NCBI GenBank assembly: GCA_018266355.1
Contig: JAFEAP010000005.1
Coordinates: 1-64,000, forward strand
Length of the DNA: 64,000 nucleotides
Direction: 5' to 3'
Source of the DNA: Bdellovibrionales bacterium
Lineage (GTDB): Bacteria; Bdellovibrionota; UBA1018
The stretch's first letter is position 1. The number at the start of each line of letters is the position of its first letter. The position numbers were made by a program, and so were the translations under genes. Below the pieces are notes generated by a model, which did not search any database, was not told where the DNA came from, and saw only the letters and a list, made by a program, of their open reading frames with translations. Positions 1,485-15,358 of the stretch are shown here, in pieces.

Positions 1485-3551
1485 ATGTCCTTCCTCGGCC
1501 AAGAAGAGCAGATCCGAGAACTCCAAGACCGGTTCAAATACCTCTACATCGCGCTCACCGTCGGCGCGCTCCTCCTCTTCTCGCGCCTCGTTTACCTCCA
1601 GATCTTCAATGGCGATAAAATGCGCCAGTACTCGGAAGAGAATCGAATCAAGAAGGTGAAGATCGCCGCGCCCCGCGGAATGGTCTTCGACCGGAACCGC
1701 ACGCTCCTGCTCGATAACCGCCCGGCCTTCGACTTGGAGATCATTCCCCAGTACCTAAAGGAGTCGAAGCGCGGGAACGAGACGCTCGAGACGCTCGCCT
1801 CCCTCATCAAGATGAAGGCCTCCGACATCCGCGCTCAGCTCGAGAAGATGCGCGGGCAGCCTTCGTTCATCCCGGTGAAGATCAAGGAAGACCTCTCGCG
1901 CGAGGAAGTCGCGCTCGTCGAGGCGTGGAAGATCGACATGCCGGGCGTCCAGGTCCAACAAGAGATCAAACGCACGAACCTCTACGGCGACGTCGCCGCC
2001 CACCTCCTCGGTTTCATCGGCGAGGTCTCGCCGACCGAGCTCACTTCTCTGAACAAAGCCGGCGAAGTCTATAAGCTCGGCGACTCCGTCGGGAAGTTCG
2101 GCATCGAGCAGCGACTCGAGGAGGTCCTGCGCGGGGAAGACGGCGAGAAACTCGTCGAAGTCGACGCCCTCGGCCGGATCAAGCTCGACCGCTCGAAGGG
2201 CCGCGTGCTCGCGTCCGAACTCGAAAAACCGGCGACGCCCGGGAAGAACCTCATCCTCACGATCGACCAGGATCTCCAGATGGCGGCCGTAAAGGCGTTC
2301 GGCGACAAGGCGGGTGCCGTCGTCGCGATCAATCCGAAGAACGGCGAAATCCTCGCCATGGTCTCGCGGCCCGCTTTCGATCCGACCGCGTTTTCGCGCG
2401 GGATCCCGCCCGCGCTCTGGGCGAACCTGATCAATAACGAGAACCGCCCGCTCCGCGACAAGACGATCCAAGATCACTATCCGCCCGGCTCCGTGTTCAA
2501 GATCATCACCGCGATCGCCGGCCTCGAAGAAGGCGTGATCGACGAGCACACCGTCTTCAACTGCCCCGGCAAGCTCCAGGTCGGATCGAAGACCTTCCAC
2601 TGCTGGCAGAAGAACGGTCACGGCTCGATCAACGTCCGCGAAGCGATCACGAAATCCTGCGACGTCTTCTTCTACAAGGTCGCCCAACGACTGAAGTCCG
2701 TCGACGACCTCGCGAAGTGGGCGTTTTACCTCGGCCTCGGCCGCCGAACGGGAATCCCGCTCCCGCGCGAAGTCCCCGGACTGATCCCCACCGAAGAGTG
2801 GAAGATGAAACGGTACAATCAACCGTGGAATCCGGGGGAAACCCTCTCGGTCGCGATCGGCCAGGGCTACGTGCTGACGACGATCCTCCAGCTCGCGAAT
2901 ACCTACGCCTCGGTCGCAAACGGCGGGACCCAATATCGCCCGTTCTTCGTGAAGCGGATCGAATCGAACGACGGCCAGGTGATTTCCGAGTCGAAGCCCG
3001 AGCCGCTCGACACCCATCACCTGAAGCCCTCGACCGCGAGAGCGGTCCGCGACGGTCTCTATAACGTCGTGAACGACCGGAACGGCACCGCGTACTCGCA
3101 GCGCCTCCCGGGCATGGACTTCGTCGGCAAGACGGGCACCGCCCAAGTGATCAACCTCTCGAAGGACCGCGTCTACGCGAAGTGCGAGAACATGCGCTAC
3201 CGCGAGCGGCACCACGCGCTTTTCGCCGGCTTCGCGCCCGCGGACGATCCGCAGATCGCCGTCGCGGTGATCGCCGAACACGGGTGCCACGGCGGTACGG
3301 CGGCCGCGCCGGTGGCGAGGGCGATCATCGATACCTACCTGCGCAAGCTCGATCCGGTGAAGTACTCCGACGCCGCGATCGCCGCGCGCGTCGAGGAAGA
3401 CAAGGAAAAGGCGAAGCGCGAGTGGCTCGCGAAGGTGAAAAAGGCCCAAGCCGAAAAAGAGGCGGCCGCGGCGGCCGTCGACGAGGACGTACCCCAAACC
3501 GACAACGATACCTTACCCGCTGCCGTCCCCGGCGCGGCGGGAGGAGACTGA
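1485..3551 (+). CDS. mrdA: Penicillin-binding protein 2, elongasome transpeptidase
   Basis: This is the class B PBP that cross-links peptidoglycan during side-wall elongation, working with RodA. A single N-terminal membrane helix (about residues 17-38) is followed by the PBP dimerisation domain and the transpeptidase domain. Catalytic motifs are visible: S336-V-F-K339 in PPGSVFK, the SCD motif in TKSCDVFFY, and K549-T-G. At 688 aa it is somewhat longer than typical PBP2 because of a charged Lys/Glu/Ala-rich tail after about residue 635. ATG 1485 is preceded by GAGGAGGG. rodA follows 3 nt after the stop. Confidence 0.96.
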   Translation: MSFLGQEEQIRELQDRFKYLYIALTVGALLLFSRLVYLQIFNGDKMRQYSEENRIKKVKIAAPRGMVFDRNRTLLLDNRPAFDLEIIPQYLKESKRGNETLETLASLIKMKASDIRAQLEKMRGQPSFIPVKIKEDLSREEVALVEAWKIDMPGVQVQQEIKRTNLYGDVAAHLLGFIGEVSPTELTSLNKAGEVYKLGDSVGKFGIEQRLEEVLRGEDGEKLVEVDALGRIKLDRSKGRVLASELEKPATPGKNLILTIDQDLQMAAVKAFGDKAGAVVAINPKNGEILAMVSRPAFDPTAFSRGIPPALWANLINNENRPLRDKTIQDHYPPGSVFKIITAIAGLEEGVIDEHTVFNCPGKLQVGSKTFHCWQKNGHGSINVREAITKSCDVFFYKVAQRLKSVDDLAKWAFYLGLGRRTGIPLPREVPGLIPTEEWKMKRYNQPWNPGETLSVAIGQGYVLTTILQLANTYASVANGGTQYRPFFVKRIESNDGQVISESKPEPLDTHHLKPSTARAVRDGLYNVVNDRNGTAYSQRLPGMDFVGKTGTAQVINLSKDRVYAKCENMRYRERHHALFAGFAPADDPQIAVAVIAEHGCHGGTAAAPVARAIIDTYLRKLDPVKYSDAAIAARVEEDKEKAKREWLAKVKKAQAEKEAAAAAVDEDVPQTDNDTLPAAVPGAAGGD

Positions 3552-8521: not shown

Positions 8522-8780
8522 TTTAAAAATCTCTCGCTGCTTGGGAGCAACGAGCATACCACCCGCTCCCCCAGTGATTTCGAGGACATCGCCTGCTTCC
8601 GACCATCGGCGCACCAGGTGCCTAAGAGTTCTACAGTCCGCCTTCCCGCTCGGACACGTCGGGCGTTACCGCCGCTGGCAACGCTTTGCGAACGAGGTTC
8701 GCTTTAGATCGAGCAATGAATGACGCGTCGAGTTATTTAGGGCGCCGACGACTTAACCCCTTATGCCTGGAGATTTCCCC
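8522..8780. other. Intergenic region between divergent regulator and GH16 genes
   Basis: These 259 bases carry the divergent starts of the TIGR02147 gene and the GH16 gene. I see no RNA gene or strong terminator. GGAG at 8769-8772 is the ribosome binding site of the GH16 gene. Promoters must lie here, but none stands out clearly. Confidence 0.4.
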
Positions 8781-9662
8781 ATGTTTATTGCTCGCTCCCC
8801 CCTCCTCCTCTCGGCGATCGCCGCATTGAGTATCGGAAATGCGCACGCGCTAGGAAAGCCCCCGTATCCCCTTCGCGACACGGCCTCGGCGAATCGGCCG
8901 ACGACGCCAGCGGTATCCCGGAACCCAGTCCAGGACGAACTCCGCCCTTCGATCCCGGTCACGGGCTACAACCTCGTCTGGGAAGACGAATTCAAGGGAC
9001 GCAGCCTCGACAGCCGAAACTGGACTGCCTGGAACAAGGCCGTCGAAAATGCCTACGACGATCCGGATTCCGTTCACGTCGACGACGGCGAGCTCACGAT
9101 CCAAACCCATACTGAACGCGACGGTCTCCATCATTCCGGATTCTTGAGCGGGAAGGGCCATTTCGAAACGACGTACGGATATTTCGAAGCGCGAATCAAT
9201 TTCCACGACTCTCCGGGCTCCTGGTGTGCGTTTTGGCTCGAGTCGAGCTCGATCGTGCCCGCAGTTCCGAACGTGACCGGAGTCGAGGTCGACGTCGTCG
9301 AACACCTCCCTGGCAATCCGAACTCCTATCCCGTGCACGTCCACAATTGGTCCTCGAACGGTTTTCGGCAAGATCACACCGCGGTCGGCGGCTCTGCCTA
9401 CACGAATGGACCCTCGCTGGAAGACAACTACCATACGTATGGCGTCCTATGGACGCCGCAAGGATATACGTTTTTCCTCGACGGCGTAAAACAGTGGCAA
9501 ACCTCCGCCTACGCTTCGCACGACAAGAAGTACATGCTCCTTACCTGCGAAGTGCTCGACAATTCGTGGGCCGGATCGATCCCCCGCGGCGGATACGGTA
9601 ACGCGTCTCAAAGCAAAACCCGCATGAAAGTCGACTGGGTTCGCGTTTGGCAAAAGAATTGA
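8781..9662 (+). CDS. Secreted glycoside hydrolase family 16 (beta-glucanase-like)
   Basis: This is a predicted exported endo-beta-glycosidase. A signal peptide (FIARSPLLLSAIAALSIG..AHA) precedes a GH16 jelly-roll domain. NLVWEDEFKG and NWTAWN mark the first strands, GYFEARI and WCAFWLE the core. The catalytic motif ExDxxE is intact as EVDVVE (E169, D171, E174 from this start), and the C-terminus has the typical MKVDWVRVWQ. The ATG at 8781 is preferred over the one at 8763 because GGAG sits 8 nt upstream and the signal peptide follows directly. Laminarin or a bacterial or prey polysaccharide are possible substrates; specificity is not readable. Confidence 0.92.
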   Translation: MFIARSPLLLSAIAALSIGNAHALGKPPYPLRDTASANRPTTPAVSRNPVQDELRPSIPVTGYNLVWEDEFKGRSLDSRNWTAWNKAVENAYDDPDSVHVDDGELTIQTHTERDGLHHSGFLSGKGHFETTYGYFEARINFHDSPGSWCAFWLESSSIVPAVPNVTGVEVDVVEHLPGNPNSYPVHVHNWSSNGFRQDHTAVGGSAYTNGPSLEDNYHTYGVLWTPQGYTFFLDGVKQWQTSAYASHDKKYMLLTCEVLDNSWAGSIPRGGYGNASQSKTRMKVDWVRVWQKN

Positions 9663-13361: not shown

Positions 13362-13388
13362 GTAACTTCGGGGGCGTCCCCGCGAATC
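13362..13388 (+). promoter_or_regulatory. ECF-type promoter upstream of the sigma factor gene
   Basis: GTAACTT (13362-13368), 14 nt, CGAATC (13383-13388). The identical pair with identical 14-nt spacing occurs before the spondin gene (14641-14667). The expected transcript start would fall at about 13394-13396, right at the ribosome binding site. A shared motif in front of an ECF gene and its neighbour fits autoregulation. Confidence 0.6.
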
Positions 13389-13408
13389 TCTAGAAGGAGA
13401 GTGAAGCC

Positions 13409-13972
13409 ATTCGCTCAAGCCGAACCTCCCCGACGCCCGATCCTTTCGACGAGCTGGTCCGCCGTGCGGTCACCGGCGAGGCGGAGGTCTATCGTGCGCT
13501 CCTCGAGGAAACTCGGCGCTGGGCGGAGCGCTTTATCGGCCACCGGATCCAACCCCCGGAACGCCGCGAGGAGGTCCTTCAAGACGTGTTGCTCTCGGTG
13601 CATCGCTCATTCGCGACCTACGACCCGCGCTATCCGTTTCGGGCGTGGCTGAAAGCCGTCGTCACTTCCCGCGTGCGCGACGCCCTTCGCGTCCAGTACG
13701 CGACGGTCGAACGCCTCACCGACGAGGGCGAGCTTCCGGACCAAGCCGCACCCGACGCGACCTCGGCGGACTCCGTCCACGAGCTCCTCGAATCCGCGCT
13801 GCAGGGATTGAACGAAATCCAGCGCCGAATTTTCACCGCGCTGAAACTCGAGGGCCGCACCGTGCGCGAAACCGCGGCCGAACTCGGGATGAGCGAAGGT
13901 GCGACGAAGGTCGCCGCCCACCGGGCCTACCAGAAAATCCGCACCGAACTCACGAAGGAGGACGCCGAATGA
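13409..13972 (+). CDS. ECF-type RNA polymerase sigma factor, apparent ATT start
   Basis: This is a 187-aa extracytoplasmic-function sigma factor. Region 2 runs from PFDELVRRAV through RREEVLQDVLLSVHRSF and PFRAWLKAVV, and region 4 is in LNEIQRRIF through ETAAELGMSEGATKVAAHRAYQKI. No ATG, GTG or TTG lies in frame before region 2. The frame opens at 13394 after a TAG, and ATT 13409 stands 9 nt after a strong AAGGAGA. The first standard start (GTG 13586) would remove most of region 2. A frameshift joining GTG 13401 to this frame is the alternative. Its stop overlaps the anti-sigma ATG (ATGA). Confidence 0.85.
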   Translation: MRSSRTSPTPDPFDELVRRAVTGEAEVYRALLEETRRWAERFIGHRIQPPERREEVLQDVLLSVHRSFATYDPRYPFRAWLKAVVTSRVRDALRVQYATVERLTDEGELPDQAAPDATSADSVHELLESALQGLNEIQRRIFTALKLEGRTVRETAAELGMSEGATKVAAHRAYQKIRTELTKEDAE

Positions 13973-14628
13973 AACCGACCGATACGTCCACCTCCTCCCT
14001 GATCGACCGCCTCGTCGCCGAGCGCCCCGAACGGCGGCCGTTCCGCCTCACCCTCGCGCGCGGCCTCGGCGTCGCCGCCTTCGCCGGAGCGGCCGCGATC
14101 GCGATCGCCCGGGCGACGAAGTTCCGCGCGCCGCTCGCGGACCTCGTGAGCGGTCCGCACGAAGCGATCGAGCTCGGCTTGCTCCTGATCTTCCTCGTTC
14201 TCGCCGTCGTTTTCGCGATCGGTACGGCGATTCCGGGTTGGACCGAACGCCGTCCGCGCCTCACGCGCGTGACGCTCGCGGCTTTCGGATTGGCCGCCGC
14301 GACGATCCTCGTCCGCGCGAGCGAGGGTGCGACCCATTCGCCGTTCTTCGGTTCGTGGGGGATTTCCTGCGCGCTTCTGCTCGCGGCGGTCGGCCTCGGA
14401 AGCGCGCTCCTCCTCTCTTTCATCGTCCGACGCGGAACCGTGACGCGCCCGGCGCTCACGGCGTGGGGCACGACGTTCTTCGGTTGCGCGATGGGCATGC
14501 TCGTCCTCGAACTACACTGCGGCGACGAATCGGCGTCGCACCTCCTCGTCGGACATTTCGGCGGACTTCTGACGTTCGCCCTCTTTTTCGCTCCGTTCGC
14601 CTATCGCCGCCTCGCGAAACGAAAATAA
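13969..14628 (+). CDS. NrsF/DUF1109-type membrane anti-sigma factor
   Basis: This is a 219-aa inner-membrane protein with six predicted helices after a cytoplasmic N-terminus of about 40 residues. The C-terminal half has the NrsF pattern (RRGTVTRPALTAWGTTFFG followed by LHCGDESASHLL), including the conserved Cys/His region. NrsF-type proteins hold their cognate ECF sigma at the membrane. The 4-nt overlap with the sigma gene supports stoichiometric co-production. The inducing signal is unknown. Confidence 0.85.
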   Translation: MKPTDTSTSSLIDRLVAERPERRPFRLTLARGLGVAAFAGAAAIAIARATKFRAPLADLVSGPHEAIELGLLLIFLVLAVVFAIGTAIPGWTERRPRLTRVTLAAFGLAAATILVRASEGATHSPFFGSWGISCALLLAAVGLGSALLLSFIVRRGTVTRPALTAWGTTFFGCAMGMLVLELHCGDESASHLLVGHFGGLLTFALFFAPFAYRRLAKRK

Positions 14629-14640
14629 AATCGGGCCGAA

Positions 14641-14667
14641 GTAACTTCGTCCCCGCGCGCGCGAATC
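14641..14667 (+). promoter_or_regulatory. ECF-type promoter upstream of the spondin-N gene
   Basis: GTAACTT (14641-14647), 14 nt, CGAATC (14662-14667). It matches the element before the ECF sigma gene exactly in both hexamer-like blocks and spacing. The expected start is near 14673, five bases before AAGGAG and 20 before the ATG at 14693. Confidence 0.6.
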
Positions 14668-14692
14668 CTTCTTCAAGAAGGAGCATCTCACC

Positions 14693-15358
14693 ATGCTGAA
14701 AACCCATTCGTCCGTTCTCTCCCTCGTCCTTTTCGCTTCCGCACTTCCGTTCGCCTCCGCACACGCCGGATTTCCCGGCGCGCGCTTCCGCGTCACGGTC
14801 CAAAACGTCACCCCCGGGAACGGCGTCTCGCCGTTCCTCGTCGGAGTATTGAAGGCCGGCCATCCCGTCTTCGAAGTCGGAAAGCCCGCGAGCGTCGGCC
14901 TCGCGACGATCGCCGAGACCGGAAACGCGGCGCCGCTCGCCGACGAGCTTCGCGCGAATCCCGAAACCCTCGTCGTCACCCAGGCCGCCGGCGGTCCGAT
15001 CGGCCCGAGCGAATCGCGTTCCGTCGAATTCGACGTCTCGCCCTTCGAACTCCGTTCGGCGCGCCTGAACGTCGTCGGGATGATCGGCCGGAGCAATGAC
15101 TCGTTCGTCGCGATCCGGGACTTCCCGCTCGCCACCGTCATGCGGATGGGCGAGGTGAATCTCCGGGCGACGAATTACGACGCCGGTTCCGAGGAAAATA
15201 CGGGTAGCTTAGCCGACTTCGGACCGGGCGGCCATCCGACGGCGCACGCCGAGGGATTCGTCACTTTCGACCGCGGATTGAATCCGCGCGGCGACGCGGG
15301 CGATCTCGTCGCTTGGGGCTCGGTCGCGGCGACCGTGAAGATCGAGCGAATCCGCTGA
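14693..15358 (+). CDS. Secreted spondin-N domain protein
   Basis: This is a 221-aa exported protein. The signal peptide ends PFASAHA. The mature part matches the spondin-N domain: VTVQNVTPGNGVSPFLVG, an AS-x-GLA-x-IAETGN block, NDSFVAIRD and YDAGSEEN with its acidic metal-site-like residues. Spondin-N domains are extracellular beta-sandwiches used in adhesion in animals; bacterial copies are poorly studied. Its own ECF-like promoter and position behind the sigma/anti-sigma pair indicate it is a direct target of that system. Confidence 0.88.
   Translation: MLKTHSSVLSLVLFASALPFASAHAGFPGARFRVTVQNVTPGNGVSPFLVGVLKAGHPVFEVGKPASVGLATIAETGNAAPLADELRANPETLVVTQAAGGPIGPSESRSVEFDVSPFELRSARLNVVGMIGRSNDSFVAIRDFPLATVMRMGEVNLRATNYDAGSEENTGSLADFGPGGHPTAHAEGFVTFDRGLNPRGDAGDLVAWGSVAATVKIERIR

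Follow-up and report, generated by a model that had tools for sequence, protein, structure and literature searches.

The window, i.e. the whole stretch of 64,000 nucleotides that was analysed, carries on its forward strand a gene for an ECF sigma factor, a gene for an NrsF-family membrane anti-sigma factor and a gene for a secreted spondin-domain protein, and the same promoter-type element lies in front of the first and the last of them. Table 1 gives the positions of these features together with the corresponding sites of a second NrsF/sigma pair.

Table 1. Features of the sigma-nrsF-spondin locus and promoter-type sites of the second NrsF/sigma pair.
Feature	Position	Strand	Description
SigF/ECF16-type promoter of the sigma-nrsF operon	13362..13388	+	-35 GTAAC(TT), -10 CGAA(TC), 16 nt between GTAAC and CGAA; exact match
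Shine-Dalgarno, sigma gene	13394..13399	+	AAGGAG, read from sequence
ECF sigma factor	13409..13972	+	187 aa, apparent ATT start; Sigma70_r4_2 4.6e-12, Sigma70_r2 8.3e-8, sigma70-ECF 2.1e-21
NrsF-family membrane anti-sigma factor	13969..14628	+	219 aa; PF06532 5.6e-16; C134, C184 conserved
Second SigF/ECF16-type promoter	14641..14667	+	Ahead of the spondin gene; exact match; same element before spondin in six other genomes
Shine-Dalgarno, spondin gene	14678..14683	+	AAGGAG, read from sequence
Secreted spondin-domain protein	14693..15358	+	221 aa, F-spondin fold (C2 variant); NF038123 1.4e-28
Sites of the second pair (L011, G000:C5)	725-750, 2088-2113		GTAAC-N17-CGTA
Sites of its same-genus orthologue (L010)	758-783, 2097-2122		GTAAC-N17-CGTA

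The start of the sigma gene is unusual. Its frame is closed by a TAG at 13391-13393 and contains no ATG, GTG or TTG until 13586, where a start would remove part of sigma region 2. The best start is apparently the ATT at 13409, nine bases 3' of the AAGGAG, and it is either an erroneous base or a rare start codon by which sigma synthesis is limited. The encoded ECF sigma factor has just regions 2 and 4, as in the ECF16 and SigF-NrsF systems, and its gene overlaps through ATGA with the adjacent gene for NrsF (DUF1109). An alignment of 13 NrsF proteins of the phylum showed two invariant cysteines. In the window protein they are 50 residues apart, the same spacing as for C131/C181 of Caulobacter and C129/C179 of Brucella. 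A simple hydropathy scan gave four clear segments, where the systems of this kind have six transmembrane helices. The window NrsF did not match the NCBIfam equivalog NF042994 (anti-sigma-F factor NrsF), which the Sulfuricella NrsF matched far below the cut-off, and hence we refer to the system as SigF/NrsF-type and not as a member of ECF16. In a sigma tree built without reference ECF16 members the window sigma formed a long and weakly placed branch; this placement and the missing NF042994 match speak against the explanation that we favour below.

The sequence-only reading had reported an exact motif pair, GTAACTT-N14-CGAATC, shortly before the sigma and spondin starts, and both coordinates were right. 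These are the only two matches in the 64 kb (0 expected; no match in 100 dinucleotide-preserving shuffles of the window), they lie 20 nt before the sigma start and 25 nt before the spondin ATG, and each is followed by an AAGGAG. The scan proposed there also showed that the motif is not frequent at random positions: there is no other N14 match in the genome (3.91 Mb, 30 contigs, 93% complete), and the one additional match, at N12, is within a coding ORF. Looser forms gave 5 matches for GTAACT-N14/16-CGAAT, 12 for GTAACNT-N13/15-CGAA and 38 for the core GTAAC-N16/17-CGAA. All relaxed matches examined beyond the window pair were inside predicted genes or had no correctly oriented gene within 300 nt. 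When further regulon members were sought among the 38 core sites, the two window sites were the only ones that lay between genes and immediately ahead of a gene in the right orientation, as judged by a simple codon-usage gene caller trained on the window genes, which could miss a short gene. The functional core of the window sites is GTAAC-N16-CGAA, and the extended -10 CGAATC is common to both of them and to the distant loci of Sulfuricella T08 (L102) and bin SKS3.83 (L106). No sigma-70-type promoter was found in the region, and no convincing terminator in the gap between nrsF and the spondin gene.

The motif had been put forward as a new prediction, but promoters of this kind have been published. 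In Caulobacter GTAACC-N16-CGAA precedes sigF itself and its targets (PMC3511200), and the ECF16 consensus is [T/C]GTAAC-N17-CGAA (PMC8315932). By sequence the window motif is a member of this SigF/ECF16 class, and this makes it much safer to assign the motif to the NrsF-linked sigma next to it. The leader of the sigma mRNA from the predicted promoter would be short, about 13-16 nt, and we counted this against our explanation. In several relatives (L005:2705-2737, L008:2753-2785 and L004:2706-2734) the -10 CGAA is only 3-7 nt ahead of the annotated sigma start, so that the sigma mRNA may have no leader or almost none.

The spondin protein starts with a Sec-type signal peptide (by inspection). 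It matches NF038123 over the cut-off, and its score for Pfam PF06468, 23.9 bits, is just below the cut-off of 24. An AlphaFold model based on 50 aligned relatives had a mean pLDDT of 88.5. When this model was compared with the PDB by Foldseek, the FS domains of F-spondin and mindin were at the top with E-values of 3.7e-12 (3q13) and 1.3e-11 and a TM-score of 0.65, and nothing else was found below 1e-3. The title of 3q13 describes a Ca2+-binding C2-domain variant. The invariant residues N135-D136 and D163-A-G-x-E167 align with SPD and YDAGTD of mindin, so the spondin likely has a metal site, for which the aligned acidic positions make calcium a candidate. The animal FS domains (PDB 3q13, 3d34) share fold and acidic metal-site positions with the window protein, whereas the latter is a single-domain bacterial secreted protein with 18-21% identity to them and no thrombospondin repeats. 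We also considered the spondin as a methionine-rich sacrificial oxidant sink and rejected this by its composition (4 Met and no Cys), which we also counted against our explanation.

In order to see how widely promoter and spondin go together, about 85,000 species genomes were scanned with a spondin alignment, yielding 80 loci, or 102 in all with further loci of the phylum. GTAAC-N16/17-CGAA, searched between -150 and +100 relative to the annotated start of the spondin gene, was present on the sense strand at 6 of the 102 other loci and on the antisense strand at none, and 1000 shuffles gave 0.15 on average and never more than 3. Among spacings of 8 to 25, sense-strand occurrences were seen only at 16 and 17. 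The six motif-bearing genomes represent at least four lineages: G025 of the window's family (L068), Pseudobacteriovorax (L069), two closely related Bdellovibrionia (L070, L071), Sulfuricella T08 and the proteobacterium of bin SKS3.83. All six encode an NrsF above the Pfam cut-off. Three spondin genomes have NrsF and lack the motif: an Oligoflexus (L113) with a spondin fragment beside nrsF-sigma, an acidobacteriotum (L116) with the spondin divergent from sigma-nrsF and a near-match GTAACC-N16-CAAA, and L094, in which the spondin adjoins a sigma-like frame and NrsF is on a separate contig. The remaining 69 spondin genomes (two double-counted ones removed) showed neither NrsF over the cut-off nor the motif. 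Fisher's test of motif against NrsF (table 6/3/0/70) gave about 3e-7, or 2.7e-6 with the two Bdellovibrionia taken as one; using 69 for 70 hardly matters.

Physical linkage of spondin to sigma/NrsF was observed in G025, the Oligoflexus, the acidobacteriotum and G300. In G300 the spondin and DUF1223 genes each have the variant GTCAC-N16-CGAA, 3 kb from NrsF. The spondin-linked sigmas did not group in the sigma tree, whose deep branches have weak support and are in part long, and the link was thus probably formed, or kept, in more than one sigma lineage. Vertical inheritance of a single sigma-spondin pair was rejected on the same tree. Most spondin genomes are without NrsF, so spondin is not tied to this regulator in general, and we counted this against our explanation as well. 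Two tandem spondin genes without an upstream motif are found in many gamma- and betaproteobacteria (Alteromonas, Rugamonas, Cellvibrio, Bowmanella; L084, L089, L096, L098, L108, L110, L111, L114, L115 and others); the checked genomes had no NrsF over the cut-off and another spondin regulator must act there.

The other genes behind these promoters give an idea of the regulon. The genome of Sulfuricella has just three GTAACCT-N14/15-CGAA sites: one before the gene of a Met-rich MXKDX peptide, adjoining sigF-nrsF, one before an MsrB-DsbD operon and one before the spondin gene. In bin SKS3.83 the two sites of this form lie before the spondin gene and before a secreted MsrB, while DsbD, which adjoins sigF-nrsF there, is preceded by a third site of the class. 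The spondin-sigma-nrsF genes of G025 are divergent from a bufA2-DUF692-DUF2063-DoxX copper-bufferin operon with GTAAC-N16-CGAA on each side. The cluster of G300 consists of nrsF-sigma followed by divergent DUF1223-MsrAB-spondin. Other members of the phylum have the motif ahead of YceI, DsbD and DUF1223 genes that neighbour sigma/NrsF. As read from these gene neighbourhoods, the common theme is periplasmic repair of oxidised methionine and thiols together with metal buffering. This agrees with the NrsF systems that have been measured, which respond to chromate and cadmium in Caulobacter (PMC3511200) and to HOCl in Brucella (PMC8315932). The G025 locus (L068:3250-7942) has its BufA2 bufferin operon next to sigma/NrsF genes, which a survey reported in Buf1 and not in Buf2 clusters (PMC12452194), and is therefore an exception.

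The genome encodes a second NrsF/sigma pair on contig C5. Its GTAACC-N17-CGTA sites, located before the sigma gene and just after nrsF, have the same -35 as the window circuit and a different -10, and this form is kept in the same-genus genome G002. Genome-wide we found 16 sites of the type GTAAC-N16/17-CGTA, including the two of the C5 pair and one (N16) in front of a bufferin-type operon (L212:1016-2331, G000:C19:77259 onward) with a Cys-rich BufA-like peptide, DUF692 and a DUF2063-like protein. Others precede frames resembling glutathione peroxidase (L231), CinA (L232) and an SRPBCC protein (L233), names that were read from the translated downstream DNA and not from a family search. The -10 elements CGAA and CGTA may thus discriminate between two NrsF regulons in one cell. 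That the genome's own bufferin operon has CGTA and not CGAA was likewise counted against our explanation.

Three known kinds of system are close to the locus. In Caulobacter crescentus SigF-NrsF (PMC3511200), sigma and NrsF form one operon, the NrsF cysteines show the same 50-residue spacing, the regulon is small and GTAACC-N16-CGAA stands before sigF and the targets. Those targets are DUF2282-DUF692-DUF2063-DoxX operons and YedY (MsrP), with spondin not reported, whereas neither an Msr nor a bufferin gene is present at the window locus. The ECF16 system BcrS-AbcS of Brucella melitensis (PMC8315932) likewise has an NrsF-family anti-sigma factor with two cysteines 50 residues apart, a promoter TGTAAC...GCGAAA and a small local target operon, but this HOCl-responsive operon encodes an MXKDX peptide and MsrQP and no spondin. 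In the NrsF-linked bufferin clusters (PMC12452194) sigma/NrsF genes are found beside an envelope effector operon, and an operon of this kind adjoins spondin-sigma-nrsF in G025. The window effector differs in being a spondin and not a modified copper-binding peptide, and the survey makes no mention of spondin.

We consider it probable that 13362-15358 is a compact SigF/NrsF-type circuit for oxidant or metal stress of the envelope with the secreted spondin as its target. The sequences show a pair of promoters unique in the genome, the families of the three genes, the fold of the spondin, the conservation of the promoter before distant spondin genes and its co-occurrence with NrsF. In the unstressed cell the membrane NrsF would hold the ECF sigma at the inner membrane. 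By analogy with Caulobacter, a periplasmic oxidant or thiol-reactive metal would change the C134/C184 pair and the sigma would be released. Free sigma would then direct RNA polymerase to GTAAC-N16-CGAA and increase expression of its own operon and of the adjacent spondin gene. The secreted spondin, an F-spondin-fold, presumably calcium-binding C2 variant, may protect the envelope or bind metal, either in the periplasm or on the cell surface. The two proposals of the sequence-only reading that concern regulation gained support from distant genomes, in which the promoter is conserved and occurs together with NrsF: the motif is the predicted recognition sequence of the sigma, and spondin, apparently the only other local target, is its main local output.

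The nature of the signal is where we depart from that reading, which had proposed an adhesin and a contact-sensing circuit. Sigma, NrsF and promoters would be the same, the signal would be surface contact or general envelope damage and the spondin an adhesin or matrix protein. It is true that animal spondin domains are extracellular-matrix domains and that the window protein is a secreted one with an F-spondin fold. However, the same promoters in relatives drive Msr enzymes, DsbD, the MXKDX peptide and bufferin operons, the NrsF systems that have been examined respond to chromate/cadmium or HOCl (PMC3511200, PMC8315932) and no adhesion partner was seen. The MsrB, MsrAB, DsbD, MXKDX peptide, DUF1223 and bufferin partners point, together with the NrsF cysteines, to oxidant or metal stress of the envelope, and we regard the adhesin proposal as very unlikely.

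The two window sites might also be used, in full or in part, by the paralogous NrsF-linked sigma of contig C5, the window sigma then being just one of two factors at these promoters. We think this unlikely: the C5 pair shares the -35 GTAAC and the range of spacings, but 4/4 C5-type sites of this genome and of G002 have CGTA and not CGAA as their -10, and the gene of the window sigma itself is preceded by a CGAA site, as is the case for SigF systems with autoregulation. The match before the spondin gene might be a coincidence or relic, with spondin transcribed by read-through from sigma-nrsF, given the lack of a convincing terminator between them, or from another promoter, and the absence of NrsF from most spondin genomes fits this too. 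Against it stand the identity of 13/13 bases at a fixed spacing, unique in the genome, and the presence of the conserved promoter before spondin genes of other genomes that are not linked, which make such a coincidence highly improbable.

A wider reading, which goes beyond the locus, is offered tentatively, as one that falls a little short of an even chance. Bacterial spondins may be dedicated periplasmic or surface effectors of an NrsF-gated oxidant/metal response, recruited repeatedly by several NrsF-type sigma lineages, with spondin here the sole target of one sigma and the paralogous CGTA pair running a separate regulon. Sigma, NrsF and promoter are of a known kind and the new part appears to be the conserved spondin output. 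A search for literature linking spondin to sigma factors, NrsF or the periplasm found nothing relevant; most subscription papers were outside this search and an earlier mention is possible. Spondin-domain proteins are widespread in bacteria, and the literature searched gave no role for them. The conserved promoter and the NrsF co-occurrence provide a regulator and a testable physiological setting, namely HOCl, chromate, cadmium and copper, and the oxidation of periplasmic methionine and thiols. In the window the arrangement is reduced to a minimum of two promoters, and its sigma, anti-sigma and single effector could be transferred to a laboratory host as a 2 kb unit. Elsewhere in the window, positions 8763-9662 encode a secreted glycosyl hydrolase family 16 protein (PF00722, 3.3e-18).
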